Notes under the pieces: model-generated
Database searches by the model: none
What the model saw: the letters and a program-made list of their open reading frames with translations, nothing else
What the model was told of the DNA's origin: nothing
Part shown: positions 31,301-63,097 of the stretch, piece by piece
Layout of the letters: every line of letters starts with the position of its first letter
Position numbering within the stretch: position 1 is the first letter of the stretch
NCBI RefSeq assembly: GCF_037975245.1
Contig: NC_092580.1
Coordinates: 2,079,501 to 2,143,500 of the forward strand
From: Apostichopus japonicus
Taxonomy: Eukaryota; Echinodermata; Holothuroidea; Aspidochirotida; Stichopodidae
Length of the DNA stretch: 64,000 nucleotides
Reading direction: 5' to 3'
Program-made: the position numbers and the translations under genes

Positions 31301-33322
31301 ACATAAGGGGCGACGGTCCTGCTGCTTCCTCGAGGGCGGAAACCTTCCATGCAGAGTTGGCTGTGGTAACAAGAGGGCGGTAGTGTACCAGCTGATGTGG
31401 CGCTGAATAACACCTTCCTTTGGTCTCGGGCCTTGTCGTACCAGCGACGATGAGAGATACGCACTTTCGCCCGAATGTGATGGACAATCTTGCAAAGCAG
31501 ATCGTTGCCGGTTCTGATTGGCACCTCGTTCGAGTAAGCCGATTGATGGATGAACTTAGTATCTGGCAACTTAGTCCAACATTTGTCTGAGCTGGTGCGG
31601 ATGGTGCACGTTCATGGCCATTCATAATAACCATTGGTGTCACAAAAGATTGAACCACTCGAACATCTCTGAAAGAAATGAAATGTCCCATGTTGCTATT
31701 GCTACTTCTGATAGTATCGGTAGCAGTTGACGAATGGAAGCACACTCCACGGCAAAGGCGAAGGGTAGGCATGTCACCTGATAATTGACGTGAGGGCGTA
31801 TGTGATCTCGGTGCAGATATTATGATCTGATGTTGAAAGCAGTCAACAATATGGGGTATGTTGGTGATGTCACTCACTAGGCGATGTTTGTTTGCCGATG
31901 AGACCTGAATGTCACGTGACAGACGTGAAAGAGGGAGTGATATTGATGTCGTTATCAGCTCCTGATGATGGAATGATTTAATAAAACGACGGTCATTACT
32001 GACGTCACTCACTGGGCGATGTTGGTATGTCAATGAGGACTGAAGGCTAGTCCCTTTAAAGGAGGTGGCTGTTACATTAGTGGTGGCTACATCTCCTTGA
32101 CAACCGGGAAAGAAATATCCTGCTTTGATGAACGAAGAGGATGATGGGATACCGCATTCAACATGGCGGTCAATCGACAACATACTGATATATTGGCATT
32201 GAACTTTTGTGGCCTTTTCTGAGTTGTTGGCTGCTGGCAGTATCTCATGATGATCAGAGGAATTGCGATGGTGTTTATCCCCGGGGGTGTTTTTGGTTTG
32301 GTGCCGTTTAGACTCATCCCTTGTGTTGGTAGTAAGGGACGATGGCTCTCCTGAGAAGATAGTATCAATCAGTGATGAAGACTTAGTGGAAGGCTCGGCA
32401 CGGGTGCCTTCATCTTCTCCAGGGAAGCTTAAAACTCGCGAGGCAGGTTTTTTCATCTCGCTTGATACAGTCACGTGACTGTCTTCTTGTATCGGGCCAT
32501 AGTATGGAAGACGACGAGGAATAGGATGGATATGAGCAGGAATATATTCTCCGGCTAGACCATCGTCATCAGCGTATGTGCGGCCACAACAAGGCAAGGT
32601 ACAAAATACCTTCTTCCAAACCGAACGTCTGAAACGAAACAAATACAGTGAGAAATTAATAGTTTAATCATTATAATAATATGTCGATTTATCATACTAC
32701 GATGGAATGTAGGGGCGAAACTTAGAGTATGAAATGTATTTACTAAAAAGAAAGGGAAGGGTGGTGTTACGTAATAGTTGGAATTCTTTATTTGAGCATG
32801 AAAATAATATATACATATATATTTCACTTCCTACCTTATTAATCGCTTCATCTACTAAACAATTGAACCTGTGAACTTGCGTATTAAACTTATTGTCGGC
32901 TGTAATTATTTTCTTTATAAATTTCGTCCATTTAATCAGATTTTCTTCGGTTTGGATTTCGGCAGATATATATATTTTAATTAAAACTAAACATCAAGTT
33001 AAACATATTGATCATAATGAATGGTTGTAATTTGATTCCTCTAAATATTGTCACGTGGTAATGACATATGTCTTCTATGAGGGAAGGTAAGGCAGTTTGA
33101 AAGTTATAGAAAGTGAATTTTTGTTAAAGGAACCAGCCACTTCCGTTGCAAATATAATAACAAAACAGATATGTGTTTCTTCCCTTCCCGACCTTCTCTC
33201 CCTCCCCGGTCCCTTTCGTCACATTGTTGAAGAATAAAAACATTATAAAAGTTAAATTCTAACCTCTCTAGACGTGGTCGGGACGAGACAGATGTTCGTC
33301 TGAAAAGACTTCCGAATGGCAT
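28324..33322 (-). CDS. Protein kinase with long disordered N-terminal region, complete, five exons, 1100 aa
   Basis: Exons, 5' to 3': 33322-33264, 32628-30339, 30007-29949, 29530-29308, 28995-28324; phases close and the stop is TAG at 28326-28324. Residues 1-780 are Ser/Thr/Asn/Pro/His-rich with no domain I recognise; a basic, Cys-containing start (KKVFCTLPCCGR) is near residue 30. Two degenerate 40-residue repeats (HRPVSDVSN..., HRLVSDITN...) lie at about 221-305. The kinase domain spans about 838-1090: glycine loop GSGSFGEV (842-849), Lys864 in CAVK, Glu882, HCDLKTDN with catalytic Asp966, DFG 991-993, APE at 1023, and YTDVYALG. All catalytic residues are present, so activity is likely. The HRD arginine is replaced by cysteine (a non-RD kinase). 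Subfamily is unknown; it may be a lineage-expanded group. The start is the ATG at 33322, preceded by accacA. Confidence 0.88.
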
Positions 33323-36774: not shown

Positions 36775-38460
36775 ACTGGTATCATCACAACTAAATCAAG
36801 GTGTCTATATATCAAGGTATAAGCAGTACAGATCTACTGATCTTCATTCAACTGTTACTGAGTATCATAACACTAAACCTGGGGTAACTGATATCAAGGT
36901 GTAATCAGTACATATCTATTGATCTTCAGTCAACTGTTACTGAGTATCATAACACTAAACCTGGGGTAACAGATATCAAGGTGTAATCAGTACAGATCTA
37001 CTGATCTGCAGTCAACTGTTACTGAGTATCATAACACTAAACCTGGGGTAACTGATATCAAGGTGTAATCAGTACATATCTATTGATCTTCAGTTAACTG
37101 TTACTGAGTATCATAACACTATACCTGGGGTAACTGATATCAAGGTGTAATCAGCACAGATCTATTGATCTTCAGTCAACTGTTACTGAGTATCATAACA
37201 CTAATCCTGGGGTAACTGATATCAAGGTGTAATCAGCACATATCTACTGATCTTTAGTCAAATGTTACTGAGTATCATAACACTAAACCTGGGGTAACAG
37301 ATATCAAGGTGTAATCAGTCCGGATCTACTGATCTTTAGTCAACTGTTACTGAGTATCATAACACTAAAACTGGGATAACTGATATCAATGTGTAATCAG
37401 TACAGATCTACTGATCTTTAGTCAAATGTTACTGAGTATCATAACACTAAACCTGGGGTAACTGATATCAAGGTGTAATCAGTACATATCTATTGATCTT
37501 CAGTCAACTGTTACTGAGTATCATAACACTAAACCTGGGGTAACAGATATCAAGGTGTAATCAGTACAGATCTACTGATCTTCAGTTAACTGTTACTGAG
37601 TATCATAACACTAAACCTGGGGTAACTGATATCAAGGTGTAATCAGTACAGATCTATTGATCTTCAGTCAACTGTTGCTGAGTATCATAACACTAAACCT
37701 GGGGTAACAGATATCAAGGTGTAATCAGTACAGATCTACTGATCTTCAGTGAACTGTTGCTGAGTATCATAACACTAAACCTGGGGTAACAGATATCAAG
37801 GTGTAATCAGTACAGATCTACTGATCTTCAGTTAACTGTTACTGAGTATCATAACACTAAACCTGGGGTAACAGATATCAAGGTGTAATCAGTACAGATC
37901 TACTGATCTTCAGTTAACTGTTGCTGAGTATCATAACACTAAACCTGGGGTAACAGATATCAAGGTGTAATCAGTACAGATCTACTGATCTTCAGTTAAC
38001 TGTTGCTGAGTATCATAACACTAATCCTGGGGTAACAGATATCAAGGTGTAATCAGTACAGATCTGTTGATCTTCAGTTAACTGTTACTGAGTATCATAA
38101 CACTAAACCTGGGGTAACTGATATCAAGGTATAATCAGTACAGATCTGTTGATCTTCAGTCAACTGTTACTGAGTATCATAACACTAAACCTGGGGTAAC
38201 AGATATCAAGGTGTAATCAGTACAGATCTACTGATCTTCAGTCAAATGTTACTGAGTATCATAACACTAAAACTGGGGTAACAGATATCAAGGTGTAATC
38301 AGTACAGATCTGTTGATCTTCAGTCAACTGTTACTGAGTATCATAACACTAATCTGGGGTCACAGATATCAAGGTGTAAACAGTACAGATCTGTTGATCA
38401 TTAGTCAACTGTTACTGAGTATCATAACACTAACACTGGCATAACTGATATCAAGGTTTC
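36775..38460. repeat. 82-bp minisatellite, about 20 copies
   Basis: The unit contains, in order, agatctactgatcttcagt, caactgttactgagtatcat, aacactaaacctggggtaac and agatatcaaggtgtaatcag. Copies are about 95% alike in the centre and decay at both edges. Variant sites (act/aca before gatatc, tactgatc/tattgatc/tgttgatc, gttact/gttgct) recur in neighbouring units, indicating local homogenisation. The array begins about 1.4 kb downstream of the IFT122 stop and shows no similarity to its exons. Confidence 0.95.
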
Positions 38461-38756
38461 CATTTGTCTAGATGGAATATATATAAAACCAAAGAAATAG
38501 GATACAACATGTCCTTGTATGAGATTGTCCCTGTCTAGTTTGAAGGTGTTTTCACATAACCAAGTAGAGGGAAAAGACTAAAACGTGACTTCCAGCTATG
38601 CATCTATTCTTGAACTAACATTCGGGTGATGATGAACATGGAAAACATGTGGATAGTTTAGAAGGTTCAGAGGTCACATTATCTGCTATCGGTAAATGAG
38701 TTAAGTGTGTACTAGCTATGGAATCACAGACCATGGTGTGTCTGTCAAACACTGTG

Positions 38757-39220
38757 ATATTGTTAACTAGACTGTGACATGTTAACTAGACTGTGACATT
38801 GTTAACTAGACTGTGACATTGTTAACTAGACTGTGACGTTCTTAACTAGACTGTGACATTGTAAACTAGACTGTGACATTGTTAACTAGACTGTGACATT
38901 GTTAACTAGACTGTGACATTGTTAACTAGACTGTGACATTGTTAACTAGACTGTGACGTTCTTAACTAGACTGTGACATTGTAAACTAGACTGTGACATT
39001 GTTAACTAGACTGTGACATTGTTAACTAGACTGTGACATTGTTAACTAGACTGTGACATTGTTAACTAGACTGTGACATTGTTAACTAGACTGTGACATT
39101 GTTAACTAGACTGTGACATTGTTAACTAGACTGTGACATTGTTAACTAGACTGTGACATTGTTAACTAGACTGTGACATTGTTAACTAGACTGTGACATT
39201 GTTTTAACTAGACTGTGACT
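38757..39220. repeat. 20-bp minisatellite with a 120-bp higher-order block
   Basis: The unit is ttaactagactgtgacattg, about 23 copies, mostly identical. Two variant units (gacgttc then ttgtaaac) recur together at about 38836 and again 120 bp later at about 38956, so a six-unit block has been duplicated. It is located 0.7-1.1 kb downstream of the IFT122 stop codon, next to the 82-bp array. Confidence 0.95.
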
Positions 39221-42800: not shown

Positions 42801-45800
42801 AGCAATATCAGTGACTATTTGTCTATGGAAGGACACAAGATCCAATAGGAAATCAGAAACCAATCATTAATTATAGATGTAACTACAGGAATGCAGTTTA
42901 CAATGACACACACTTGATACAGTCTGCTGTTCTGTAACACTTTACCTCGGCATCATGGAATGGCTTCGATCTTATCGTAATGCTGCCTAGATCAACAGTG
43001 TCTTGTAATCTCGGTGGTATTCTAAGGGATTGCAATTTCTCAAAGGCAAACCTTGCCAGTTTGTAAGCCTGTAAGATCCTGCTCTGTTTAGCAAGAGCAT
43101 AGAGAGTGTTACTGAGATAAGTTAAGGAAGATGAACTGTAATATGAAGACAAAATAGTAAACAAATAAATTTGAAAATTTAGAGGCACATTTATGAAAGA
43201 TTTGACAAATAACTTCTTGAAAATTATGTGTGACAATTGTTCAAGTAAAACTTGCCACTTTTAAGTTTATACTGTAATATTTTTGACTGTAATTAATGCA
43301 TACTGAACTTTGACCCATGTTGGCACCCTGCCGAGGGTATTACAAGAGCACAGGTTTCCATTATTTTGATAAAAGACCCTCAATTACTCTAAGAAAGTTA
43401 CCCCTAAAACAAAGCCTAAGCTTGCAACACTTTCTAAAGCAGATGCACCTTTCATAGGGAACCCACTTTGCATATAAGAATTGGGCTGAAGATGTGACAT
43501 GTTGGACATGTTATCTTTAATTAGAGTGGCTAATAATCAGCTAGTTCCAACTGTTTGACAGAAAGAAATACTTCCCATATTTTCAAACAAAACAGTACAT
43601 TTATTTCATGAAATTATATGTTTTTATGGTTACATACATTTATTAATGAAATACATACTATTGTTATTTGGTGTATAGAAGTACAATGCTTTTCACATTA
43701 ATGTATTCCGTCCGATCGATGAGGTGAATCATCTCACTGTATAATAATAATAATTATAATCATTCAAGAAGGAAATATCATGTTTCAAGTACTGCCGTGA
43801 ATAATAATTAATTATTTTAATTTCCATTTCTACGCAACGACACTTCCAACATTAACCGACCACACAATACATCAGTGGGGTGGGTGGGTATATATGTAAA
43901 AGGATACACTTTACTGACTCCATGAGGAACCTCTTTCAAGATGGCATGCCAGAGGTACTTGGCCATATTAAAGAGTGTCTCTGCCTGATGGGAGGTGAAG
44001 GGTTCATCAGTGTACCTTTGTATGGTATGGTAAACATAATAAACCTCAGCTTTAGACTGGAACTCCTGGAACTTCTGCAACATCTCACGACTATTCTCTT
44101 CGTTCTCTGTTGAAGAATGACAGAAGTTATAATATTAACTGCAGCTAATGTCAAATGCCAAACCTATTATGCCTTGTCGTTAATTTATGCAAAAAAGAAA
44201 CTTTGCTAGTTTCGCTAACATTTCATAATGTGATCACAAACAGTAGTGCCCATACCTATTTGTAGTATTGTAATGTAGCCAATGGCTGTAGCATGAACCT
44301 ATTTTCACAGTAGTACAACCTGGCACTGAGTGGTCCTATGTTAAGTGAATCCTAAGTAGACTTGCACAGGCTGTACAGAAGTAGGATGCAAAGTATAGTT
44401 CAACTTGCCACTGGCTGTAAAGGCAATCATTTTCTGAAGACTGCCTAGACTGCTTTGAGTAAATATTTATCCTTCCAGTATCTAGTTTCCTATAAAGTAC
44501 ATTGTGATAACTTCATAACCACAACGTAACAAGAGCTTGGGGAACTTTGGTTAAAATACTGAATGTTTATTTGAATAGAAAGTGTGGATGAGACAATCTT
44601 ATCCATGTTAAGATAATATGTGCCATAAGCTTTAACATTTACATGTTATTATTCAGTCCACATTCAACATTTAGGTAAATTTATATTAGCATTGTGACTA
44701 ACGAGTACAGCTAAATGAGACTTACGAAATGAAAGAGAACTTACTTCCAGCAATCTCCAGGCACTGCATAGACAGATTCCAAAAATAGTAACCAGCATCG
44801 TTAAAACGGCTCTCCATGACGGCATTGTGCGTCAGCTGTTCCAGTACTCTAACTGCCTCCCTCTGTTGTCCAGCCTTGTGGTAAGCTAGGAATAAGTCAG
44901 ATCAGTAAAGTTCATGTTCTATTCTATTCAATGCACAACAATGCTCTATTCTATTCAATGTAGAACAATGCTCTATTCTATTAAGTGTAGAACAATGCTC
45001 TTTCTATTCAATGTAGAACAATGCTCTATTCTATTCAATGTAGAACAATGCTCTATTCTATTAAGTGTAGAGCAATGCTCTTTCTATTCAATGTAGAACA
45101 ATGCTCTGTTCTATTCAATGTAGAACAATGCTCTATTCTATAAAGTGTAGAACAATGCTCTTTCTATTCAATGTAGAACAATGCTCTATTCTATTCAATG
45201 TAGAACAATGCTCTATTCTATTCAATGCAGAATAATGCTCTATTCTATTCAATGTAGAACAATTCTCTATTACATTAGCTTTCTTGTATGCAGGCCATGT
45301 TGCTCTATACTGAAACCGTTTGCTGAGATAAATGGTAACAGCCACATTCTACAGTGTTCCAGTATTAAGCCTAACAGGAGATGGAATAGTTATCTGGGAT
45401 AACCTTTGTCCTTGAGAAAGAATGTCAAATTAGAAGGATGCAAACTTTGGATCCTTCAAAGTCTTTATCCACACGATGGTTTACGGAAAAGACCACGACA
45501 CATTTACACCTTAATTCATTGCTAAAGGAAGGAACTACGCACCCCTTCTTAAAGTCAACCACTCAATCAATCCTGGGTAAACTGTGTGAAAGGGAAGTGC
45601 CTTAATTAACATATAACATACACTCTTGTGGAGCAGGATCAAGGGAAATTTAAATTGACAATATAAGTACTCTTAATTGCAAACATAAAGCAATTGGAAG
45701 AACGGCATAGCAACTTCACGCTTTGTCTATCAGCGCCATTCAAGGCTTTCTCATCTCTCAGCATTATCTGAGGCTTGCACATGGTTTTGTATAACCCGCT

Positions 45801-48800
45801 CTAATGATGTACGGCTTCAGTATGGTATATAATGTTAACTACATTGGAATGCATGTTCTCCAATGATGAATGACTGACCTCTCTCATCATGTTCTTCACT
45901 GAACTTACAGCCTTATATGTCTGTCTTTGTATGAATACACACACTGCACTCTTTAGTACTATACTCAATGGTAACTTTTCACCCAAAGAAAATGACTTAG
46001 TGCCTAGCATCAAGAATGTCCTTGTTGTAGAAACATGAATAACCATCTCTACACTGAGTTGTTCCTGTAAACTTTGAGATGAGAGGACCAACCTTTTTGA
46101 GCTTCTTCAAATCTGTCATTCTCAGCCAGCCATCGGGCATAAGGTACGTAAACATCATCCTTAAGGACAAAAGAAGAACAATGTATAGGCTTAAATAAAT
46201 CCCTAGAAATAATTCAAAATACTGGAATATTGCTCTTAATTAAAACTTCAGACAAACACATTATTAACCCAACATATCACTATGCTGTTAAAATTGCAAT
46301 GACATGTTACCAGAGAGAGGTAAACGTTGAAAAACAGACAGTTCCATACATCATGTACAAAACCAAACCAAGCAAACAAAAACACATAGAGACCAAGCAT
46401 TTACTGCCATTGATTTCCATCAAAGGGATATTATGCTGGTCAAAAGCTGTTTGTGTCATATAAACCCTATGAACTTTCTGCACTCGTAGTTATAAATAAC
46501 ATCCTAACAGCATGCTCTATCACAAATGTATGAATGTGTACAGTGTTAGAGGGTTTCATGTGTTTTGCAACAGAAGTGCCAGTGACATCACAGAAATTGA
46601 GTTGAAAATGTCTTTTGGGGTTGATTTGTGATTTTCAACTTGGATTAAACAGGGGATGAACCTGGGGTAAAAAAAATTCACGGAACTTTGCAAAAATTGC
46701 GGTACAGGCTCCAGTTTGAGTATGCTACAGTGTGTCAGGATAATAGTTTATGTCCCGAGGTAGAAAAGAAATCACAGATATTCCGCGAATTCGCGGGAAA
46801 AGCTCATGCCTGATTAAATGTGACAGAAATTTTGTCTTTCATGTAAGGTCCACATAAGCCACAGGACTATAACTTTAAGTTGTATTCTCATGTTTACTAC
46901 CTTGAATTCCGAATGCTTCTCTACTAAGGTGAAGGCTGCTTCCCAATTCCTGGACTCCACATGAAGGAGAATTAAGTTCCGGGTGTCTCCCATCTTGGTC
47001 AGAGTCTCTGCAGCGTAGGCAAACTGCTCCATCCTCTTAAAGTATTGTGCACATTTACCGAGAGGTTCTCTGTCAGCCTTGTCAAGCTTACGAGCAACGT
47101 CGATGAGCCTTGTGAGGAGAAATAATAAAGATAAAGAAATTCTCTGACATAATAAAAAATAAAATATATACAACGGAAAAGTGACTGTGAAATTATGAAA
47201 AAAAAATATAATACATATCAGCCATAAATTCGAAGAAGACATTTGAATGAAGTTTTAAAAGTAAGTAAGGCATTGCCAGTACTGTGTATGGAATGCACTG
47301 ATACCAATAATTATAACCAGGATATCCATTTGTTCAGAAGTAGGTATTGATTTGACTTTACCAAGTAAACAAAATATAGTATACGTAAATAAGAAAACAG
47401 AAACTGACGGTAAAGTTTCAATCAAATTTGAGCGAAGAAATTTAAATCGCTAGCAAAGCAATTCAAACCAGTGAACTATACTCTCCTTCCCCAAGGATTA
47501 TCAAAGGAAAGGTGGTTGAATAACTCAAATGGGTAGCAAACAAGAATTGCACCTCTGGGGCAATTGATTCTGGCCGTTAATTTGTTTGCTCTTTGAAAGT
47601 TTTTAAAATACATAGAAGACAAAAAACCCAAACAATCCTCACATATCTGCCCAGCCATTGTCACCGATGATCTCTACGGCTTTAAGGTGTTCTCCAGCGG
47701 ACAGGTACATCTCTGCGGCAGCTCTGGGTTCGTTGATATTTTTGGCCCAATCGGCCTGCTTTGTGATCAGTAGTTTCTTATCCTGCGGATCTCCGCTGCC
47801 GATGAAATCTTTGGCCTGGTCGAACATGCAGAGATCCGTGTACATGTTCATGGCCTTCTGTTCGTGCCCTGCCCTCTTGTACAGCTTAGCTGCTTCGCCA
47901 AACTTGCCCTGGTAGGCGAAGACATCTGCCAGGAATAACTGGTCGTCTAGCTCACCGCGGCGCTTCCTCTCCTGTAGAAGTAGTAACAAAATAAAATTTA
48001 AAAACAAAAAAGTCACCAGCAATTTTTCCACTTAAAATGTTTATTTTTGATTAAAATGATTATTTTTTAAAATGATTTATTTTTTCTTAAAATGATTATT
48101 TTTTAATATACTTTGGCAAGGATAAAAACCAAAATTGATAATGCTAGACTTAATCTTATTGGGCAAGTATCAAATTTGTATGAACAGTGCTGAGAGATTA
48201 GGGTTAACATTAAACATTAAGGAGAAACTTTGCCCATTTATCTTAAAAGATATCTGAAAGTAATGCCCTAATGTTTACCATTTAAAGTCAGTATGTTGCT
48301 TTTACTTGATAATTAACTTCATGTTGTCAAACAAATATGTGACTTGCAAACTATTTCACCACAAAAGTGAGGACATTTACAAAGGTCATGTTAGTTTCAA
48401 TTACAAATTTAAAAAATGAGACTATAGATGGAAACATGGAATGGATTATCTTTCTAAACTTTGGGATTCATTCATAAATGGGACAATGAAATTGACATTA
48501 TTACTTGTATTATCTGATGTGAGTTAATTCAGAGTATGCTTAAGTTTGGTTGCTATGTGTGGCCATATCCTAGGAACCAAAAGGATTCAGACATTAATTT
48601 TTGTGCCCATTTTCTTCCTTTGAGACATCTGGGAACACAGTATATTAATATCAGCCAGATATAAATAGTCGTCTGGAGGTGTCTGTTACTTTGGCATGGA
48701 TTGACCTGTGTACCAGAATATCTGTAACAGACACCTGACTGGGAATCAAACTAATGACCTCATGAATACCAATCCCATGATGCATCACACTAGCTATTCA

Positions 48801-51800
48801 GCTATCAATATTTCCCACTGCTTTGCCTCAAAATATCATAATTATAATCTTGGACAAAGTTTGAACATAACAACATGGAGAGCGCCATGACAGTCTTTCT
48901 CCTGCAATTTAAGACATCCTCTCCTTTGAATGTTTACATTGTGACATTATTTAAGTCTCTTCTTGTGCAGGTCCTTACTACACCTCCTTTCCATACTTGC
49001 AGGCCTACCTCAATGTTATGAATGAGTTCCAAGTAGCGTAGATCCCGGACCCTGATGAAAGCTTTCTTGGATGTGTCAAAATCAAGTCCCTGAAGGGCCT
49101 CGTGGGCCAGAGCATTCCAGTCCTTCTCAGTTACTCCCAAACATGCAACTCGATAAGCATCCCTGCAAGAAAAGTAAATTGCTGATCTTTTTAAGTTTTG
49201 TACCATACAGGCAGCCACATAGGATTCAGTTTCATTGACCTCACTGTAGTCCTGCTTCTTTGTATAAACCTACATCTGGTCCTTTCGTAAAGTGCAACCT
49301 CCTAACTTAATCGGTCGTGAACAATTTTTGAATTTGCCACACACCCCTCCCTCCTCCCCAAACTTTAAAATCCTTTGCATGCCACTGCCTTTTAGAGTTA
49401 ATTAAAAAAATGACAAATCTTGTGGTAGTAACAACTACTTTCATAAACTGTACAAAGTATGTGTTACCTTGTGGAAGTAAAACATAGTTGAACTGAAGGT
49501 ACGTGTTACCTTGTGGAGGTAAAACATACTTGAACTGAAGGTATGTGTTACCCTATGGAAGTAAAACATACTTGAACTGAAGGTACGTGTTACCTTGTGG
49601 AAATAACACATACTTGAACTGAAGGTACGTGTTACCTTGTGGAAGTAAAACATACTTGAACTGAAGGTACGTGTTACCTTGTGGAAGTAAAACATACTTG
49701 AACTGAAGGTACGTGTTACCATGTGGTAGTAACACATACTTGAACTGAAGGTACGTGTTACCTTGTGGAAGTAAAACATACTTGAACTGAAGGTACGTGT
49801 TACCATGTGGTAGTAACACATACTTGAACTGAAGGTACGTGTTACCTTGTGGAAGTAACACATACTTGACCTGAAGGTACGTGTTACCCTACTGAAGTAA
49901 CACACACTTGAACTGAAGCAACGTGTTACCTTGTGGAGGTAACACATACTTACTTGAACTGTTTCCGCTCCAAATACTGATACATGGGTGCTGACTGGGG
50001 TACCTCCACCGTGGTCATAGCGTACACATGAAGACAGAAGATCTTGGAGCCAGTGAAGCCCACCACAAAGCCCTGCATCTTCTGTTGGTGCACTGGAAAA
50101 TTGCTGGCCTTAATGTTCAACTGGTTGTTACCCGAGAAACACAGCATATCTTCACATTGGGTATTCCAGGCAACGCTGTTAGCATTCGGTTCCTACAAAG
50201 TAGCAAAAACCGGTGGACGGATAAAATATGAGGAGAGAAGGCTAAAGATGTGTTAGTTGAGATCTCAGAAATGTCATGACGCAAATTATTTGCAGAAGAG
50301 GGTGTAGTCCCAGCGGAAAAATCTATTCATATCTTCTGTTATATAATGACTACTTCAATGTGTTCAGATGTTATCAGATTATGCGTTGCATAGCAACAGT
50401 TCTTGTTAAGAACTGAATGGTTTAGATAGATTTTGGATCAATGGTTGATATTGCCTGTAGAGTCGGAGGATGAGTGATTTCTGTGGTATCTTATCTAGTC
50501 ACATATCTTACTAAACAAGTAAGTAGAAGTACATCCATCTCAAATGTGACCCAGTCAAGGAATAGTTTGAAATGGCCTTACTGAAGTGATTTCTTTCGGC
50601 ATATTTTCAGTCATTTTCCTGTTGATGTTTGGATGTTCAAGAGGATGAAATAAAACCACCAATGGTCTAAACATTGGCAGGATTAATAATAATAATAATA
50701 ATATTCCAATTTTATATAGCCCTTTATTCCAGCGATAGGTCTCAAAGTGCTTGACAGACGTTATGTTACCCCTGGTCAATGATAACTTGTCCCAGAGACA
50801 ATCCCTAACGTCAGCTACAGTTATATACTGCGCCCAATGACAAGTTACCTCACAGGTACCCATTTAAACCCTGGGTAGAGAGAGGCAATTGAGATAAAGC
50901 ATCTTGCCCAAGGACACAACGTAATGAACTAGGCAGGAGTCGAACCAGCAATCCTTGGATCACGAGTCTGACGCCCAATCGTCCACCACGCTCCACAGGA
51001 TTGAAGGTGATTTAAAAGCATTCAGAAATTCCTGGGTGAAACAGTGAGAATCTAAAGCAAGATTCCGCAGGGTCATGCCATGATAGCCCAAGCCACCAGC
51101 CAGCTACCAATTGGTGTGTCGGACATGTGTGTAAGTCGACGGAGTATTAAATGAATCGTGGTACGACACCAAGACAAACTTACCTGAAAGAGCAATTCTT
51201 TGGTGTCTACATCATAAACCAAACAGGTATTATGTTCATCAACCACGGCCAGGTGTTTCCTGGAAGAGTTCAGGTCCAAACATCTCACAGAAGTTTGTTG
51301 TTTCAGGATGAGGATGGGGAATGGATTGTCCACAAATATCTTCAGTATCTGGTAAAAGTCATTTTAGGTAAATTTACATAAATTAAATGCAAGAACTCTT
51401 GATTACATAGAAATTCCTTTGCCAACTGTAGTTAAATCAGTTCTCTGTACATGGTCAATGTAAAGTTCAATACAGTATATTTAAGTTTTGACTGAATGCT
51501 GTATAATTTATGTCCTAGGTTAGAGAGATCTAAACCTATTCTTGAGGTAATAAGAGGCAGAAGAAGATTATTCATAGTAAAAGAACGCATTCATAGCTTC
51601 ATCATAAATTTGTATCCTTTCGGACAGCAAACTTTGAATTCAAGCAACCTTAAAAGGAATGTCAACATTGTATGAGGGCGTACCACCAAACTCTATTAAA
51701 TTAAAATCTGAGTCCATTTACATGGACAGGGTTACATTTCATCACATTACTTTGATCATGGTCCCCAAGAGTTCCCTCAAAAACAGCCAAGTGAATGAAT

Positions 51801-54800
51801 ACCAGCTAAAATGCATTTCAACAATAGCAACAAAAGAAGACTGCATCACAACTTTAAAAAACTACCAAATAATTTCACAAAAATTGGTTAAGACAAAAAT
51901 CTTCACAAATGAATGGACTCATTATGCAAATTATTTACAAGGACCAGATGACATTAACACTGACCTACATAAAACAACACAGCACAAAACCCTTTCCCAG
52001 CAGTAATGATTAACCAAACATCTTCATATTTCTCTTTTAGTTTATTATTGCGAGTCAAGTTACCATTTAATACAAGTCACATTTTCTTGTATTGCCCCTT
52101 CATTTTTGTTGCCATTGTTTTTCTGCTGCATTGATGCTAACAAACAAAAGTGGAGATGAAATGCTTACCTGTCCGTTCTTGAGACCGACTAAAAGCCCTT
52201 CTCGTCCACTGGTTCCTCCGATTACTTTGATGTATCTGATCAAGGCCTCCATCACCCACTCACGTTCCTTGTTTCCAGATAAGCTGTAACATGTCAACCG
52301 TTTTTCCTGTGATCAAAAATATTTTAAAAAACTGGTGATAGGGGCTATGGATAATACAATCTTCACTTAGCCAGGAGGATGGACTGAATCAGTGCATGGT
52401 CTCAGAGATGATATACAACATGACATACTTCAATGGGAGATCTTGGATTTAAAATGTGCCGTTAATGACCACTAACATTCTCAGCTCAATAGAATTCTCA
52501 TAAAAGATTCCTGGGCCTGAGATACTCATTCTAGAAGGATATTCTTTAAGAGGTTTATTGTTTCTGAAGAAGGTCTTGCTATGATCAAAACATCATTTTG
52601 TACAATTACACACAGAGGCATTTTGTAGTAAACATTGCAGTTTTTAACACTCTGTTTTCCTATGTATTTGTATTCTGTGTTTGATCTCTGGTCACATGTC
52701 AAACATGGTTCATTGAACAGATTAATGTCAGATATATAACTAGGATTGTTTGTTTTCATTCCAGAGATCCCTAATTAGCTATGTACGAATGATTCCATCC
52801 GGTTCTAACTTATTAATTAGTCATGCTGACACCTTTGTTACCTCAAATACAAGTCCAAGTGAACCTTGAATCAAATATTCACACCAGAAATGAGTCTTTA
52901 CTGAGTAAAGTTCTGTAAATCAGCTGCATTCTACAAGGATTAAGGTATGAAATGGTCTTCAGAGTCAACATGAATTACCCACAATCCCTTAGTGCTGGGG
53001 TTCTACATTAATTGTCTACAAGGGTCAGAGAAAAACATTGGTTGGAGCACCAGGCAATAGAGAACCACAATTGAGCAACGTGTAGAGTAAGCTGGTAGTG
53101 TTCTCAAGCCTATGGCCTTAAGGGCCCATATACCTGATTGTGTTAGCGTGTGAGTATATTTTCGCTTCTCGGCCTTTTGGCTAAGATCATGTGTAGTATC
53201 TGTTCCCTTTCGAGGGAATGGTGATGCACACCTGACGACAATCGCACAGTCACAGTCCCGATGCAAGGGGACTGGGGTTGACAGCGGATCAGTTGTTTGG
53301 TAGTTTGGTTTTCGTGCCCGGGTTCTTTCCTGGGCGACTTTTCCTTAAAAAAAAGTATATTTTTTGCAGTATGTTTTTGCAGTAGGTTTTGTGGGTATAT
53401 TTTTTTGGCAGCCCAGATGTGGCCCACAGTCCACCTATTGAGCACCCCTCTCTTAGTTGGAACCATGACTAGGTGATAAGCTGATAGGGACAATGACTAG
53501 CATGCCTCTTTCGTTCTCCTTAAACCCCATTTTTTCAATTTGGATCCATCCTCTTACCTGACAGAGGACGATGTGTTGAGAGCAGACCACGAGAAGGTTG
53601 CATTCAAACTTCTGATTGATTTTTTCCTTGACTCTGTAGTGCATGTCAGATGCATCCTCTGAGTATAGTTCATAGATGATTATCTTATCGGAGAGTTGAA
53701 CCTATAGCCGCAAAACAAAAACAGAATTTAAGCGGGTTGCAAAGATTAAAACAGAGCATATCTAGTAAAACAAGGTTTAAAGTAAGTGATGGATGATTCC
53801 TCATGAAACGGAGCATTTAATCTCCCCAGAATGGTGCAGTAAGGTGGACACTAACATCAGTATTAAATTTTTAATTAACATTTGCCCTGATTCTTAAAGG
53901 CCAAGTAAGCTATATCTGGGTACATACCCACTGAGCAAATGGTTTAGGACTATGCCAATTGTCAATGTTTTTAATATAAGGAACAGATTTTTTGCATTTC
54001 TTGTGACATAAGTAAAGTAGATGACAAACAATGTAGTTGGTGATCAAACTCTATTTGCATGTTAAAATGACTCAGTGATAAATAGATATGAGATATGCAC
54101 TCCACAATCTCACAATTCCATAGGAAAGTCACACTTAATACATTCTGATTTATGAAATATCTATTAAAAATTTAAAAAAATACATTGATAGTATAATTTA
54201 TAAAACAACTTATACATACATAAATATACTGATACAAAAGCTTTCTCAAAAGAAAAATGTTTTACTTTTAATCAAGAAAAGTTCTATGTGCAGGAATGAG
54301 TAGTAAAAATACTACAAGGTTTAAACTTACTGCAAGTCTGTTCTTGTAGATGGCTATCTTTTTCACCAGGTCTCTGCATTTCAAACGGACTTTCTGTTCT
54401 GTGAGCAGATGCTGGACGATGACATCTGTCATGTTTTCCCTGTAGGCATATCTATCCTTGTAGAGCCCATGAACGGTACTGAAGATTAGCTGATAGTAAG
54501 CTATGGTACCGTCCTGGCAACCGACAGCCTATATGAAAGACAACAAACACACATACATATGACTGAAGATGAGCCTATACGACAACTAACACACATACAT
54601 ATGACTGAAGATGAACTGATAGTAAGCTATGGTACCGTCCTGGCAACCGACAGCCTATATAAAAGACAACAAACACACATACATATGACTGAAGATGAGC
54701 TGGTAGTAAGCTATGGTACCGTCCTGACAACCAACAGCCTATATGAAAGACAACAAACACACATACATATGACTGAAGATGAGCTGGTAGTAAGCTATGG

Positions 54801-57800
54801 TACCGTCCTGACAACCAACAGCCTATATGAAAGACAACAAACACACATACATATGACTGAAGATGAGCTGGTAGTAAGCTATGGTACCGTCCTGACAACC
54901 AACAGCCTATATGACAGACAACAAACACACATACATATGACTGAAGATGAGCTGATAGTAAGCTATGGTACCGTCCTGACAACCAACAGCCTATATGAAA
55001 GACAACAAACACACATACATATGACTGAAGATGAGCTGATAGTAAGCTATGGTACCGTCCTGACAACCAACAGCCTATACGAAAGACAACAAACACACAT
55101 ACATATGACTGAAGATGAGCTGATAGTAAGCTATGGTACCGTCCTGGCAACCAACAGCCTATATGAAAGACAACAAACACACATACATATGACTGAAGAT
55201 GAGCTGGTAGTAAGCTATGGTACCGTCCTGACAACCAACAGCCTATACGAAAGACAACAAACACATATACATATGACTGAAGATTAGCTGGTAGTAAGCT
55301 ATGGTACCGTCCTGGCAACCAACAGCCTATATGAAAGACAACAAACACACATACACATGACTGAAGATGAGCTGGTAGTAAGCTATGGTACCGTCCTGGC
55401 AACCGACAGCCTATATGAAAGACAACAAACACACATACATATGAGTGAAGATGAGCTGGTAGTAAGCTATGGTACCGTCCTGGCAACCGACAGCCTATAT
55501 GAAAGACAACAAACACACATACATATGAGTGAAGATTAGCTGGTAGTAAGCTATGGTACCGTCCTGGCAACCGACAGCCTATACGAAAGACAACAAACAC
55601 ACATACATATGAGTGAAGATTAGCTGGTAGTAAGCTATGGTACCGTCACCGACAGCCTATATGACAGACAACAAACACACATACATATGACTGAAGATGA
55701 GCTGATAGTAAGCTATGGTACCGTCCTGACAACCAACAGCCTATATGAAAGACAACAAACACACATACATATGACTGAAGATGAGCTGATAGTAAGCTAT
55801 GGTACCGTCCTGACAACCAACGGCCTATACGAAAGACAACAAACACACATACATATGACTGAAGATGAGCTGATAGTAAGCTATGGTACCGTCCTGGCAA
55901 CCAACAGCCTATATGAAAGACAACAAACACACATACATATGACTGAAGATGAGCTGGTAGTAAGCTATGGTACCGTCCTGGCAACCGACAGCCTATACGA
56001 AAGACAACAAACACACATACATATGACTGAAGATGAGCTGGTAGTAAGCTATGGTACCGTCCTGGCAACCGACAGCCTATACGAAAGACAACAAACACAC
56101 ATACATATGAGTGAAGATTAGCTGGTAGTAAGCTATGGTACCGACCTGACAACTGACAGCCTATATGAAAGACAACAAACACACATACATATGACTGAAG
56201 ATGAACTGGTAGTAAGCTATGGTACCGTCCTGACAACCGACAGCCTATATGAAAGACAACAAACACACATACATATGACTGAAGATGAACTGGTAGTAAG
56301 CTATGGTACCGTCCTGACAACCGACAGCCTATACGAAAGACAACAAACACACATACATATGACTGAAGATGAGCTGGTAGTAAGCTATGGTACCGTCCTG
56401 ACAACCAACAGCCTATATGAAAGACAACAAACACACATACATATGACTGAAGATGAGCTGGTAGTAAGCTATGGTACCGTCCTGACAACCAACAGCCTAT
56501 ATGAAAGACAACAAACACACATACACATGACTGAAGATGAGCTGGTAGTAAGCTATGGTACCGACCTGACAACTGACAGCCTATATGAAAGACAACAAAC
56601 ACACATACATATGACTGAAGATGAGCTGGTAGTAAGCTATGGTACCGACCTGACAACTGACAGCCTATATGAAAGACAACAAACACACATACATATGACT
56701 GAAGATGAGCTGGTAGTAAGCTATGGTACCGTCCTGACAACCAACAGCCTATACGAAAGACAACAAACACACAGACATATGACTGAAGATGAACTGATAG
56801 TAAGCTATGGTACCGTCCTGGCAACCAACAGCCTATACGAAAGACAACAAACACACATACATATGACTGAAGATGAGCTGGTAGTAAGCTATGGTACCGT
56901 CCTGACAACCAACAGCCTATACGAAAGACAACAAACACACATACATATGACTGAAGATGAGCTGGTAGTAAGCTATGGTACCGTCCTGACAACCAACAGC
57001 CTATATGAAAGACAACAAACACACATACATATGACTGAAGATGAACTGGTAGTAAGCTATGGTACCGTCCTGACAACCAACAGCCTATACGAAAGACAAC
57101 AAACACACATACATATGACTGAAGATGAACTGGTAGTAAGCTATGGTACCGTCCTGACAACCAACAGCCTATATGAAAGACAACAAACACACATACACAT
57201 GACTGAAGATGAGCTGGTAGTAAGCTATGGTACCGTCCTGACAACCAACAGCCTATATGAAAGACAACAAACACACATACACATGACTGAAGATGAGCTG
57301 GTAGTAAGCTATGGTACCGTCCTGGCAACCGACAACCTATATGACAGACAACAAACACACATACACATGACTGAAGATGAGCTGGTAGTAAGCTATGGTA
57401 TCGTCCTGACAACCAACAGCCTATACGAACACAACAAACACACATGTAGACACATGATAACTTCATGAAATAAAACCAAATAGCTCAAACATCTACTGAC
57501 GTAATATCAAACTGACCGATCTGACAAATGAATATTCCAACTGTGTATTTATTCTACTGTATCACAGATAATTTGATTGGTTTAACCGAGGTTCATTTCA
57601 AGCGTTTATACTGACCACAAAGTTTTGATCGGGCCTGACGGCACACGACCAAATCCATGACTTTTGTTCTGCGATGACACCTAGTTGCACCCCTTCCTTG
57701 GTGTGTAACACTGCCTGTTTGTTGGACCCACCAATCACCATGTATTCCCCTTTGGAGAAGAATCCCAGAGAGCAAGGGTCATAAGCTAGGTCACGATCTT

Positions 57801-60800
57801 TGCCAATCTGTAGGGAAATGAAGAGAATAAATAGTCTGGTTCAAGTCAATCTATTCGAAATGCCAATCGGTACCTCCAACATGCTTGAATTTAGTCCAAA
57901 AGAGACTTGATGCTGTGTTCCTATACAGACTCCCACTCTGTATGGTACAGTTTCAATGCAAAAACACTTGGCAAAACATTAATCAAATCCATAAACTAAC
58001 ACTTTTTTGCAATTTCTAGGAAAAACAATAAATCTGTACCACCTGGACAGAACTCAAGGGCATGCAGATGTCTTCTAGCTTGATAAAGATAATAGTAAGT
58101 CCTATAAGTTCCAAAAATAAATGCCAAATTTCAAGGAATGTCACAATGTACTGTTATCGAAGATAACTGTTAATGTTAATGTGACCCTGTCTTACGTGCA
58201 AATCCAAGTCATTAACACTGACAACGGTTACAGTCGACTACAGTCGGATAGCACAATCTCACATCATGGCCGGACTTAACACCTTCAAGCAAGATTGCTC
58301 CAAGATAATGTGGTAATGAATATAAATCACTGTTTGCCTCAAAATTTTACTATGTTTATACACATCACCATAGAGTTACTTCTTGCATTCTTTAAATGAC
58401 AGGTACTACAGTAGCTAAACAAGAAGAAACTATCTTTGTAAACTATCTTTGTAAATCAAAATCTCTACCCCCTTCCCTTAATCCTCTCTTTGTCCCTCCA
58501 CTGTTATCTCCTACCTCTCCTCTTTCCCTGTTGGTTTCTTTCTTTTTTCTCTCCATCCCTTGTCTTCTAATCCCCTTTCATCAATCTCTTTGTGTTCACC
58601 ATGCTCATTAACCTGTCTGTATTTTGTGCGTGTTTTTGTCCCTTCTGTTACTGTTACTTGTCATTTAGCCTTTGAAGAAGATCCTGCTAGGATCGGGGAT
58701 CAGGCCAACTTACTTTTACACATACATCAAATTGTATTAAAGGCACCCAGCTTCCACAAGGTTATTATGGATATTGCTATATTTACCTTTTGACCACTGA
58801 GTTGGTAAAATGATAGCTTCTGACCCCAGTCGACCACTGCCAGGACATCATGAGCTTCACCTCTACATAATACAAAAAAATGGAGGGTCAGTTTCTTGGA
58901 TTTATTCCTTTACAGCATTCCTTTGGTTACTGTGTGCAATAATACAATTAGTATATTAATTTTTTTCTTTTTCTTGGGGGGAGAAGATCATGCTTAGGTT
59001 GCTTGAGAAAGCAATAGGCAGTTTTCCATGCCTATTGTTGAAAGGGAAAATGGGGGGGGGGTGGTATCTGGTGGAGGGGGTTACAAAAGTAAAGTAAAGA
59101 GGAAAGTGGACTAGAATTGCTCAAATAAATTTACTTAGCAGGATTCCAGCTCATCTTCCAAATTGGGTTTACAGCTCCACCTGGTCGTTCAAACTTCAAC
59201 TTCTCCTCGCCATTCTAAGGATGAATAAAAATAGGTAGATATTAAAAAACCCATGAAGGTAAGAAGTTAAAGAACAACACCATTTGATAGGATCTACTAA
59301 CACACTGAAGTAAACTGAGTACCCGAGTGGAAGGACATGGACTTACATGGATTTGTCCATTCTACTAGCTTACCTTTGTTCGTATACTGATTTGTCCATT
59401 GAACTAGCTCACCTTTGTTCGTATACTGATTTGTCCATTCTACTAGCTTACCTTTGTTCGTATACTGATTTGTCCATTGAACTAGCTTACCTTTGTTCGT
59501 ATACTGATTTGTCCATTGAACTAGCTCACCTTTGTTCGTATACTGATTTGTCCATTGTACTAGCTCACCTTTGTTAGTATACTGATTTGTCCATTGAACT
59601 AGCTTACCTTTGTTCGTATACTGATTTGTCCATTGAACTAGCTTACCTTTGTTCGTATACTGATTTGTCCATTCTACTAGCTTACCTTTGTTCGTATGCT
59701 GATTTGTCCATTCTACTAGCTTACCTTTGTTCGTATGCTGATTTGTCCATTCTACTAGCTCACCTTTGTTCGTATACTGATTTGTCCATTGTACTAGCTT
59801 ACCTTTGTTCGTATGCTGATTTGTCCATTCTACTAGCTTACCTTTGTACGTATACTGATTTGTCCATTCTACTAGCTCACCTTTGTTCGTATACTGATTT
59901 GTCCATTCTACTAGCTCACCTTTGTTCGTATACTGATTTGTCCATTGTACTAGCTTACCTTTGTTCGTATGCTGATTTGTCCATTCTACTAGCTTACCTT
60001 TGTTCGTATGCTGATTTGTCCATTGAACTAGCTTACCTTTGTTCGTATACTGATTTGTCCATTGAACTAGCTTACCTTTGTTCGTATACTGATTTGTCCA
60101 TTGTGCTAGCTCACCTTTGTTAGTATACTGATTTGTCCATTGAACTAGCTTACCTTTGTTCGTATACTGATTTGTCCATTCTACTAGCTTACCTTTGTTA
60201 GTATACTGATTTGTCCATTGAACTAGCTTACCTTTGTTCGTATACTGATTTGTCCATTGTACTAGCTCACCTTTGTTCGTATACTGATTTGTCCATTGTA
60301 CTAGCTCACCTTTGTTCGTATACTGATTTGTCCATTCTACTAGCTTACCTTTGTTCGTATACTGATTTGTCCATTCTACTAGCTCACCTTTGTTCGTATA
60401 CTGATTTGTCCATTGAACTAGCTCACCTTTGTTCGTATACTGATTTGTCCATTGAACTAGCTCACCTTTGTTCGTATACTGATTTGTCCATTCTACTAGC
60501 TCACCTTTGTTCGTATACTGATTTGTCCATTCTACTAGCTTACCTTTGTTCGTATACTGATTTGTCCATTCTACTAGCTTACCTTTGTTCGTATACTGAT
60601 TTGTCCATTCTACTAGCTTACCTTTGTTCGTATACTGATTTGTCCATTCTACTAGCTTACCTTTGTTCGTATACTAATTTGTCCATTCTACTAGCTTACC
60701 TTTGTACATATACTAATTTGTCCATTCTACTAGCTCACCTTTGTTAGTATACTGATTTGTCCATTGTACTAGCTCACCTTTGTTCGTATACTGATTTGTC

Positions 60801-63097
60801 CATTCTACTAGCTTACCTTTGTTAGTATACTGATTTGTCCATTGTACTAGCTCACCTTTGTTCGTATACTGATTTGTCCATTGTACTAGCTCACCTTTGT
60901 TAGTATACTGATTTGTCCATTGTACTAGCTCACCTTTGTTCGTATGCTGATTTGTCCATTCTAGTAGCTTACCTTTGTACGTATACTGATTTGTCCATTG
61001 AACTAGCTTACCTTTGTTCGTATACTGATTTGTCCATTGAACTAGCTTACCTTTGTTCGTATACTGATTTTTCCATTGAACTAGCTCACCTTTGCTCGTA
61101 TACTGATTTTTCCATTCTACTAGCTCACCTTTGTTCGTATACTGATTTGTCCATTGTACTAGCTCACCTTTGTTCGTATACTGATTTGTCCATTGTACTA
61201 GCTCACCTTTGTTCGTATACTGATTTGTCCATTGTACTAGCTCACCTTTGTTCGTATACTGATTTGTCCATTGTACTAGCTTACCTTTGTTCGTATACTG
61301 ATTTGTAACCTTTGTACGTATACTGATTTGTTCATTGTACAAGCTTAATTTTGTACATATACTGATTTGTCCATTCTACTAGTTTACCTTTGTACATATA
61401 CTGATTTGTCTGTTCTACTAGCTTACCTTTGTACATATACTGATTTGTCCATTCTACTAGTTTACCTTTGTACATATACTGATTTGTCCATTCTACTAGC
61501 TTACCTTTGTACATATACTGATTTGTTCATTGTACAAGCTTACTTTTGTACATATACTGATTTGTCCATTCTACTAGCTTACCTTTGTACATATACTGAT
61601 TTGTTCATTGTACAAGCTTACTTTTGTACATATACTGATTTGTCTGTTCTACTAGCTTACCTTTGTACATATACTGATTTGTCCATTCTACTAGCTTACC
61701 TTTGTACATATACTGATTTGTTCATTGTACAAGCTTACTTTTGTACATACACTGATTTGTCCATTCTAGTAGCTTACCTTTGTACATATACTGATTTGTT
61801 AATTGTACAAGCTTACTTTTGTACATATACTGATTTGTCTGTTCTACTAGCTTACCTTTGTACATATACTGATTTGTCCATTCTACTAGCTTACCTTTGT
61901 ACATATACTGATTTGTTCATTGTACAAGCTTACTTTTGTACATACACTGATTTGTCCATTCTACTAGTTTACCTTTGTACATATACTGATTTGTCCATTG
62001 CACTAGCTTACCTTTATACATATGCTGATTTGTCCATTCTAGTAGCTTACCTTTGTACGTATGCTGATTTGTCCATTGTACATCCCAATAGCTAGATACT
62101 GCCCATCGTTAGTCCAGCTGCAACAAGTTATTCTACTGCTACATCTGTGTTTAGATACAGCCTTCTGTTCCATTGACCACAAACCTGGGAAGCGGATACA
62201 CAACAACCATTAATGTATTGCAAATACACAACAACCATTAATTGATAGCAGATACACAATAAACATTAATAGAAAGCAGATAAACAATAACCATTAATGG
62301 ATACCATATGTATGTATGTATTTTAGATCCTCCTGCAAGCAGGAACTCGCGAAGAAGCCATCATTGGCTTATCAAAGCCGCAAGCTGACCGAAGTCATTC
62401 TCTTAGATTCATATTAAATGTCCATGATTATGAATTGTCAACAACTCTGTAACTGGACGACATACATTAATCTTGGAGTGACTCGAACTTGGGACCTTAT
62501 GATTGAATGTGAAGTTGTGAAGTTTTCAATTGAAAAGAGGATACTACAAAAAAAAAATAGCAATGTGTTACCATCAAAGCAATGACTCAAAAGTTTTTTC
62601 TGCAGAATAGATTCAAAGGGATTAATTATTTAATTAATTAATTAATTACTTCTGAACACAGCTCACATGCCATACAAGAAACCCTTGAAATGATTTTGCT
62701 ACAGCTTTGGCAACCAGACAAAATGGTGTCTACCTTCAACAATCACATTGTGGTCAGTATATCTTTACAAGTTTACATAAACATTAATAACAAGAATTAT
62801 AGTCAAAGATCACATTGGATGAGGAAATTGGGGGTAGGGGAGGAGGGGGGGGGGATTTTTTCAGAGTCAGGGGCAATTTGAGAGCCCAGTGTGGGATGCA
62901 GTTCCATTTGACGATGACATCATATCTGGGCATCAGATGAAAGCTACTTTGAGATATTACTGTCCGTATTAAATGATGTATCAAAAAGCTGTATTATGAA
63001 CTAGATTTGTTATAACCTACCAAAGTCACTACACGCGCAGCTTGCCAACTGATGTGTTATCGGATTGAATGACAGGCACTGCAAGGAATCATTGTGT
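39886..63097 (-). CDS. IFT122: Intraflagellar transport protein 122 (IFT-A subunit), 5'-incomplete, 21 exons
   Basis: IFT122 is a core subunit of the IFT-A complex, which drives retrograde transport and membrane-protein entry in cilia. Exons 5' to 3': 63097-63021, 62184-62051, 59214-59135, 58862-58787, 57807-57616, 54528-54331, 53701-53558, 52306-52169, 51348-51184, 50192-49954, 49162-49009, 47971-47643, 47108-46901, 46159-46093, 44885-44745, 44106-43908, 43111-42946, 42429-42318, 41702-41488, 40659-40495, 39978-39886. Phases agree at every junction, giving 1096 residues plus TAA. N-terminal beta-propeller blocks include [35 protein letters not shown] and VGCQDGTI. The middle and C-terminal TPR-like helices include [20 protein letters not shown] and [17 protein letters not shown]. 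Zn-binding Cys pairs (CYRC/CTNC, CPSC/CPFC) close the protein. The first roughly 100 residues are beyond base 64000; no earlier exon was found up to 64000. Splice junctions at 62051, 54528 and 49954 are embedded in tandem arrays. Confidence 0.95.
40909..41361. repeat. Pair of direct repeats of about 62 bp in an IFT122 intron
   Basis: ctgtaggagattagaacaaa followed by cggctga and tcaagtctatga occurs at about 40909-40970 and again at about 41300-41361. Both are within the intron between exons 41702-41488 and 40659-40495. Confidence 0.75.
44913..45275. repeat. 27-bp minisatellite just upstream of an IFT122 splice acceptor
   Basis: The unit is approximately atgctctattctattcaatg plus tagaaca, about 13 copies, some one base shorter (ctcttt). 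The array ends about 28 bp upstream (in transcript sense) of the acceptor of exon 44885-44745, so it occupies the usual branch-point region. Unlike the other three IFT122 arrays, the unit does not contain the exon junction. Confidence 0.92.
48020..48115. repeat. AT-only low-complexity tandem (aaaatgattatttttt type)
   Basis: Three to four irregular copies of ttaaaatgattatttttt lie in the intron 5' (transcript sense) of exon 47971-47643, starting about 50 bp from its acceptor. Confidence 0.75.
49441..49953. repeat. 42-bp minisatellite carrying copies of an IFT122 exon end and splice donor
   Basis: In transcript sense the unit contains cttcagttcaagtatgtgtt (or gttttac), acttccacaagg and taacacgtac; about 12 copies. 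The real exon 50192-49954 ends cagttcaa, followed by the donor gtaagtatgtgttacc at 49953. The array starts immediately there, and each unit repeats cagttcaa plus a gtatgt donor-like hexamer. Two to three variants (accatgtggtagtaacac versus accttgtggaagtaaaac) alternate. Period 42 leaves frames open: in the exon frame units read [14 protein letters not shown], but the first unit has TAA directly at the true donor. Confidence 0.93.
50687..51000 (-). mobile_element. tRNA-derived SINE in an IFT122 intron
   Basis: Read on the minus strand, the head is at the high end, with box B ggttcgactcctgcc and the body module ccttgggcaagatgctttat. The tail is the att/aat trinucleotide run at 50687-50702. It shares its body module with the SINE at 4037-4352. 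It lies in the intron between exons 51348-51184 and 50192-49954, in the same sense as the gene. Confidence 0.8.
53161..53353 (+). mobile_element. U2-snRNA-derived SINE with target-site duplication
   Basis: The first 45 or so bases match the 5' end of U2 snRNA nearly perfectly (cgcttctcggccttttggct, then aagatc and gtgtagtatctgttc, including the branch-point-pairing gtagta). After that the U2 similarity stops: the Sm site and 3' stem-loops are missing. The rest is an unrelated body with a gcccggg/cctgggc hairpin and an A8 tail. The 8-bp agtatatt occurs at 53153-53160 and again at 53354-53361, a target-site duplication that marks retroposition. It lies antisense in the IFT122 intron between 53558 and 52306. 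This is a repeat, not a functional U2 gene. Confidence 0.85.
54481..57460. repeat. 84-bp minisatellite carrying copies of an IFT122 splice acceptor and exon start
   Basis: About 35 tandem copies. In transcript sense each unit reads tgtgtgtttgttgtctttca, tatag, then gctgttggttgtcaggacgg and taccatagcttactaccagc tcatcttcagt, then catatgta. The last copy is the genuine 5' end of exon 54528-54331: its first 51 bases (encoding [17 protein letters not shown]) match the unit, and after ttcagt exon and unit diverge. Every unit keeps a pyrimidine-rich tract and the AG acceptor. Copies differ mainly at g/a and c/t positions; two units near 54560 and 55648 are shortened. Because 84 is divisible by three and the exon begins in phase 0, every acceptor's TAG is an in-frame stop for an exon extended upstream. 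Long ORFs on both strands here are by-products. Confidence 0.97.
59340..62083. repeat. 39-bp minisatellite carrying copies of an IFT122 exon end and splice donor
   Basis: About 70 tandem copies. In transcript sense the unit is aatggacaaatcagtatacg then aacaaag and gtgagctagtac. The first copy is the true end of exon 62184-62051, which encodes [10 protein letters not shown] and is followed by the donor gtaagc at 62050. Nearly all units keep aaag followed by gtaagc or gtgagc, a good donor consensus. There are two subfamilies: units near the exon (about 61310-62083) have gtacatatac/acttttgtac, while distal units (59340-61310) have gttcgtatac. In the exon frame the first unit reads GTA AGC TAC TAG, so read-through stops within four codons. 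The array fills the 2.8-kb intron to within about 125 bp of the next acceptor at 59214. Confidence 0.97.
62307..62507 (-). mobile_element. 5'-truncated copy of SINE family B
   Basis: The reverse complement matches the element at 10727-10985 from caatcataaggtccc through box B (aagttcgagtcactcc) to gcttcttcgcgagtt and gatctaaaatacatac. Box A is missing, as expected for 5'-truncated retroposition. It lies in the IFT122 intron between exons 63097-63021 and 62184-62051. Confidence 0.8.

Follow-up and report, generated by a model that had tools for sequence, protein, structure and literature searches.

The window analysed here, 64,000 nucleotides (nt) of Apostichopus japonicus DNA (contig NC_092580.1, positions 2,079,501 to 2,143,500), carries on its minus strand the gene IFT122, in which three tandem arrays repeat an exon edge together with its splice site. 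The sequence-only reading had already named the gene, and the best matches among solved structures, which are IFT122 homologs, bear this out. Our spliced model comprises 21 exons and 20 GT-AG introns within the window in a single open frame; it was aligned to the C-terminal end of a Holothuria leucospilota protein (P0001), is without the gene's 5' end, and the 5' bound of its first listed exon is arbitrary. A pseudogene was ruled out, since GT-AG introns link all 21 exons without a break in the frame. Among the best 120 of 1984 matches to the draft protein, P0001 was the closest (94% identity over 100% of the draft), and identity was 83-85% to sea urchins, 80% to a sea star and 76% to Branchiostoma. 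A protein of A. japonicus itself, P0007, matched at 90% over 94%.

P0007 differs from the window by five substitutions in the alignment, leaving aside the first exon, an exon missing from P0007 and the P0007 tail; this tail is what the window's own intron after 46093 encodes when it is read through. The missing exon is 57616-57807, just upstream of one of the arrays, and P0007 joins straight to 54528-54331. Real skipping or a gap in the assembly of P0007 (a 515-kb scaffold) may account for the absence. The exons and arrays concerned, which we call A, B and C in the direction of transcription, are as follows; positions are those of the window.

62051..62184, minus strand: exon upstream of donor array A, with genuine donor AAG/gtaagc (spliced model)
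59350..62050, minus strand: array A, 69 decoy copies of a 39-bp unit, 68 of which keep GT (Tandem Repeats Finder (TRF), unit listing, U1 pairing)
59135..59214, minus strand: exon downstream of array A (spliced model)
57616..57807, minus strand: exon upstream of array B, with donor GTG/gtcagt (spliced model)
54529..57460, minus strand: array B, 35 decoy acceptors in intron 57615-54529 (TRF, unit listing, acceptor listing)
54331..54528, minus strand: genuine exon of 198 nt downstream of acceptor array B, with donor GCA/gtaagt, in frame with P0001
49954..50192, minus strand: exon upstream of donor array C, with genuine donor CAA/gtaagt (spliced model)
49457..49953, minus strand: array C, 11 decoy copies of a 42-bp unit, 10 of which keep the donor GT (TRF, sequence, unit listing)
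49009..49162, minus strand: exon downstream of array C (spliced model)

Array B had been described from the letters alone as some 35 tandem copies of an acceptor with the first 51 exon bases, set against exon 54528-54331. Both the copy number and the adjacency to this exon held on re-alignment, although the description lacked the two sister donor arrays. TRF placed the array at 54581-57445 with a period of 84, 34.2 copies, 96% matches and a score of 5121. A full unit joins the first 51 nt of exon 54528-54331 to the last 33 nt of the intron, and TATAG/G acceptors number 36, that is, 35 decoys and the genuine site at 54528. The full 51-nt exon part is retained by 33 decoys (32 units of 84 bp and a last one, at 54654, of 80 bp), each identical to the genuine copy at 46-49 of 51 positions, and the exact peptide is still encoded by 20 of them. 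The other two are damaged: a 78-bp unit at ~55656 and a truncated unit at 54574, which looks like the product of a deletion between two GCT triplets. Damage is seen in the copies at the exon end of the array, and its start is diverged. In 19 of the 36 acceptors, genuine counted, the last 23 nt before the site are identical to the genuine sequence.

The use of an upstream acceptor was expected to add a multiple of 84 nt to the exon, which proved wrong for the three nearest sites: they add 46, 126 and 210 nt, owing to the damage in the last two copies before the exon. The expected in-frame TAG fared better. All 34 copies checked have it immediately ahead of the exon part, and all 33 full decoys tested contain an in-frame stop; the truncated decoy at 54574 (46 nt) shifts the frame instead. 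Exons spliced at the two nearest decoys would measure 244 or 324 nt. Each unit had also been taken for a complete decoy mini-exon of about 58 nt. This was too strong: the mini-exon reaching to the best GT measures 56 nt in 31 of 33 units and this donor is very weak, at -3.5 kcal/mol against -5.6 for the true donor of the exon. These energies are ViennaRNA duplexes with the U1 5' end, for which the commonly known sequence was used. A search for a branch point 15-55 nt ahead of the genuine acceptor gave a single YTNAY motif, CTCAT, which lies 42 nt away within exon-derived sequence; such motifs are common, 2 of the 20 genuine IFT122 acceptors are without any, and a branch point inside the exon-derived repeat is a lead only.

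On the donor side, array A extends with its genuine copy over 59350-62081 (70 copies, GT in 69). Each unit joins the last ~30 nt of the exon to the first 9 nt of the intron. Predicted pairing with U1 is -9.5 or -9.6 kcal/mol in 60 of the 70 donors, genuine counted, the genuine donor itself standing at -9.5. Use of a decoy leads to a stop at codon 4, within the first added unit, as computed for decoys 1, 2, 5 and 69. The acceptor of the same exon, 62184-62051, has its own small repeat nearby, four copies of a 28-bp unit at 62191-62303 that end 7 nt from it.

Array C, 49457-49970 with its genuine copy, repeats 8-9 nt of exon end, the donor and intron sequence; one copy has lost its GT, and the first unit differs in spacing from the later ones by 4 nt. 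Here the genuine CAA/gtaagt reaches -7.5 kcal/mol and the ten GT decoys -4.0. The array also contains 12 further GTAACA donor-like sites of -5.0 to -6.5 that are not exon-derived. All ten decoy donors meet a stop at once. Both A and C have their genuine donor in the first copy. Decoys with an intact AG or GT thus amount to 113 in this gene (35 in B, 68 in A and 10 in C), and the units of the three arrays have no match elsewhere in the window.

The resemblance of array to exon edge was compared with shuffled edges. The 24-nt exon edge at array B matches the intron at 33 places with at least 17 of 24 positions, the best being 24/24, compared with 12.4, on average, for the best match of shuffled edges; the likeness is therefore not due to chance. 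For array A, the best match was 23/24 against 13.5. The junction of array C was missed (best 12/24), because its exon part of 8-9 nt is too short for this screen. Among 40 junctions screened in this way for hidden low-copy duplications, only those of A and B had copies at 17/24 or better; the next best, acceptor 52306, reached 16/24 (p 0.02), as expected by chance among 40 tests.

Other tandem repeats lie in and beyond the gene. Two purely intronic arrays, 44914-45271 and 48031-48106, come to 29 nt from acceptor 44885 and 60 nt from acceptor 47971, respectively, and further arrays at 36809-38457 (82 bp x 20) and 38751-39219 (20 bp x 23) are located past the final exon of the IFT122 model. Arrays B and A also contain long open frames on both strands, of up to 612 codons (54490-57484 and 59297-62095). 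We rejected their interpretation as repeat proteins: of two stretches searched, one from B and one from A, neither found a protein relative at E 0.001, with 7989 and 7992 candidates scored.

The variation among the units of array B fits a homogenised, unconstrained repeat. Variable columns make up 11 of 51 in the exon part and 6 of 33 in the intron part; exon and intron columns thus vary alike, as repeats free of constraint should. At third positions, minor frequencies are higher, but variable columns are not clearly more numerous (5/17 vs 6/34). With 5 synonymous and 6 nonsynonymous variable columns, we make no claim of selection on the decoy coding sequence. Four synonymous variants of the genuine exon are shared by a minority of the decoys (12, 11, 8 and 3 of 33), a pattern compatible with sequence exchange between exon and decoys and also with common descent. 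Toward the exon, the units become more like the genuine copy in array B (Spearman 0.495, permutation p 0.0014) but less like it in array A, and growth from the exon end was dropped as a general rule because the two trends are opposite.

We consider it probable that IFT122 harbours three independent junction-spanning minisatellites, or 'mirages', which grew neutrally and whose exon-attached copy is chosen by exon definition. Each array would have begun as a tandem duplication of part of the exon edge together with its splice site and some adjoining intron. The additional copies, which lie on the intron side, would have multiplied by slippage or unequal exchange, and, being spliced out with the intron, could drift like any minisatellite. 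In exon definition, splice sites are paired across the exon. Splicing would accordingly use the copy attached to the full exon: a decoy acceptor of B would be disfavoured because the donors near it are all very weak, and a decoy donor of A or C by its greater distance, compared with the true donor, from the acceptor of that exon. Erroneous splicing would presumably end in an early stop or a frameshift and nonsense-mediated decay, and some leakage to the nearest decoys of B, removed in the same manner, is to be expected.

That exon definition is the main rule of site choice here is, judging from the DNA, the most likely account. The conserved IFT122 frame is obtained from the exon-attached copies only, and this conservation suggests that the gene is spliced normally despite the copies. 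Genuine and decoy sites are alike in predicted strength in arrays A and B; strength does not separate them there, and therefore context must, as had been proposed earlier with exon definition as an example. The three arrays also set models of site choice against one another. The inner copy is far closer to its partner site across the intron than the genuine one is (159 vs 2836 nt in A, 195 vs 3087 in B and 367 vs 791 in C), and pairing across the intron would pick inner decoys in all three arrays. Scanning from 5' to 3' would pick the genuine donor in A and C and the first decoy acceptor in B. Only the attached copy is favoured in A, B and C alike if pairing occurs across the exon. For exons between long introns, an exon-centric choice of 5' sites has been reported (PMC9225289).

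Several observations weigh against this account. The same study describes for 3' sites under exon definition merely a reduced upstream preference (PMC9225289), which alone may be insufficient to hide the 35 upstream acceptors of array B, and the exons made with its nearest decoys are just 244 or 324 nt long. In array C, with its short exon part, the difference between -4.0 and -7.5 kcal/mol could by itself explain the choice. The polarity of similarity differs between B and A, and arrays are in excess at junctions beyond what neutral growth alone would give.

This excess is the basis of an alternative in which the placement of the arrays is not neutral, tandem duplications being started at junctions by some process linked with transcription, with splicing or with short introns. 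When arrays collapsed to one unit were placed at random, a mean of 0.52 junction crossings resulted (P of at least three crossings, 0.0096); of nine arrays in the gene, six span a junction or lie at most 60 nt from one, where 2.28 are expected (P 0.010); and the carrier introns 62050-59215, 57615-54529 and 49953-49163, collapsed to one unit (174, 254 and 336 nt), rank 1, 2 and 4 of 20 in length (p 0.0018), all three tests being post hoc, confined to one gene and based on nine merged TRF arrays, with the limits of B and C extended by hand to the genuine copies. Six of the nine arrays cross no junction, and others lie outside the gene. We regard such a process as unlikely here. A regulatory role, in which some transcripts use decoys, gain a premature stop and are degraded, so that array length tunes IFT122 mRNA by regulated unproductive splicing, would agree with the stops that follow decoy use in all three arrays and with the undecayed decoy sites of A and B. 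Yet stops are also expected by chance in a non-coding extension, the TAG of array B is merely the acceptor itself in phase 0, and the exon parts of the decoys have no sign of constraint; this role seems to us quite unlikely.

Tandem arrays are often mis-sized in assemblies, and the skipping of the exon next to array B in P0007 is what a gapped or collapsed array might cause; the copy numbers, or a whole array, could in that case be artefactual. Against such an error, the copies differ from one another (the commonest exact 84-mer occurs five times among 33 units of B), the ends of array B are damaged copies, as in real arrays, and similar structures have been confirmed by others in amphioxus genes (PMC3902484, PMC3087553). 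We hold it to be very unlikely. Oriented 5'-to-3' scanning for the first good site, a conclusion reached for intron 7 of human factor VII (F7; PMC6627357), would suit arrays A and C with their genuine donor as first copy. It fails at array B, where the in-frame acceptor is the last of 36 and the first decoy brings an in-frame stop, and as the main rule in this gene we find it highly improbable.

Elsewhere in the window, the minus strand encodes a protein-kinase domain at 28327-29169 (Pfam Pkinase, E 1.7e-16), with a weaker piece at 29275-29541. Beside it lies a 779-codon open frame at 30327-32663, also on the minus strand and with no Pfam match.

Arrays of this kind are already known from amphioxus, where 'mirages' have been described in Adh3 and the globin genes BflGb6 and BflGb9, with similar splice-site repeats in TnC and PGBD5 (PMC3087553, PMC3902484). 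As in these descriptions, arrays A, B and C are tandem units laid across an exon-intron border, on the donor or the acceptor side, and their units contain splice signals (35 decoy AGs in B, GT in 68 of 69 decoys in A and in 10 of 11 in C). RT-PCR (reverse-transcription polymerase chain reaction) suggested that splicing of the amphioxus genes is undisturbed (PMC3087553). As far as the open-licence papers listed show, the present gene adds to the published accounts a sea cucumber as carrier, three arrays in a single gene and both polarities together. Copy numbers differ as well: BflGb6 haplotypes are described with 3 and 6 units, whereas the IFT122 arrays have 12, 36 and 70 copies, genuine counted. 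Judged by title and the start of the abstract, no report of such arrays in echinoderms was found among the open-licence papers listed.

Two human cases are related. The 37-bp repeats of factor VII intron 7 begin with the genuine 5' splice site and continue as decoy donors, as do arrays A and C (PMC6627357), but as described they lie on the donor side only, unlike array B. Variable internal tandem repeats at exon-intron borders in human segmentally duplicated genes are likewise minisatellites that change gene structure; their units average 30 bp x 4, and they are linked to alternative splicing and novel introns in recent paralogs, in contrast to the far higher copy numbers in the conserved IFT122 (PMC2812944). 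The CTNS repeat (PMC5628181) was set aside as a parallel, as it is described as purely intronic.

The combination of donor and acceptor arrays in one gene means that the three ideas of site choice predict different junctions, and RNA from ordinary animals could separate them without engineering. With ~113 intact decoys, many having the predicted strength of the real site, this conserved gene is a natural test of how exon ends are found. Junction-spanning arrays are also a trap for gene annotation and for short-read assembly, and the long open frames in A and B are a hazard for automatic prediction. As an idea we think improbable but worth stating, junction-spanning minisatellites might be a recurrent route of intron growth in deuterostomes that starts at the borders of short introns, the array lengthening an intron-defined intron until pairing across the exon hides the decoys and the array becomes harmless by its own growth. 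If such arrays are general in echinoderms, junction-spanning repeats would be more than an amphioxus oddity.

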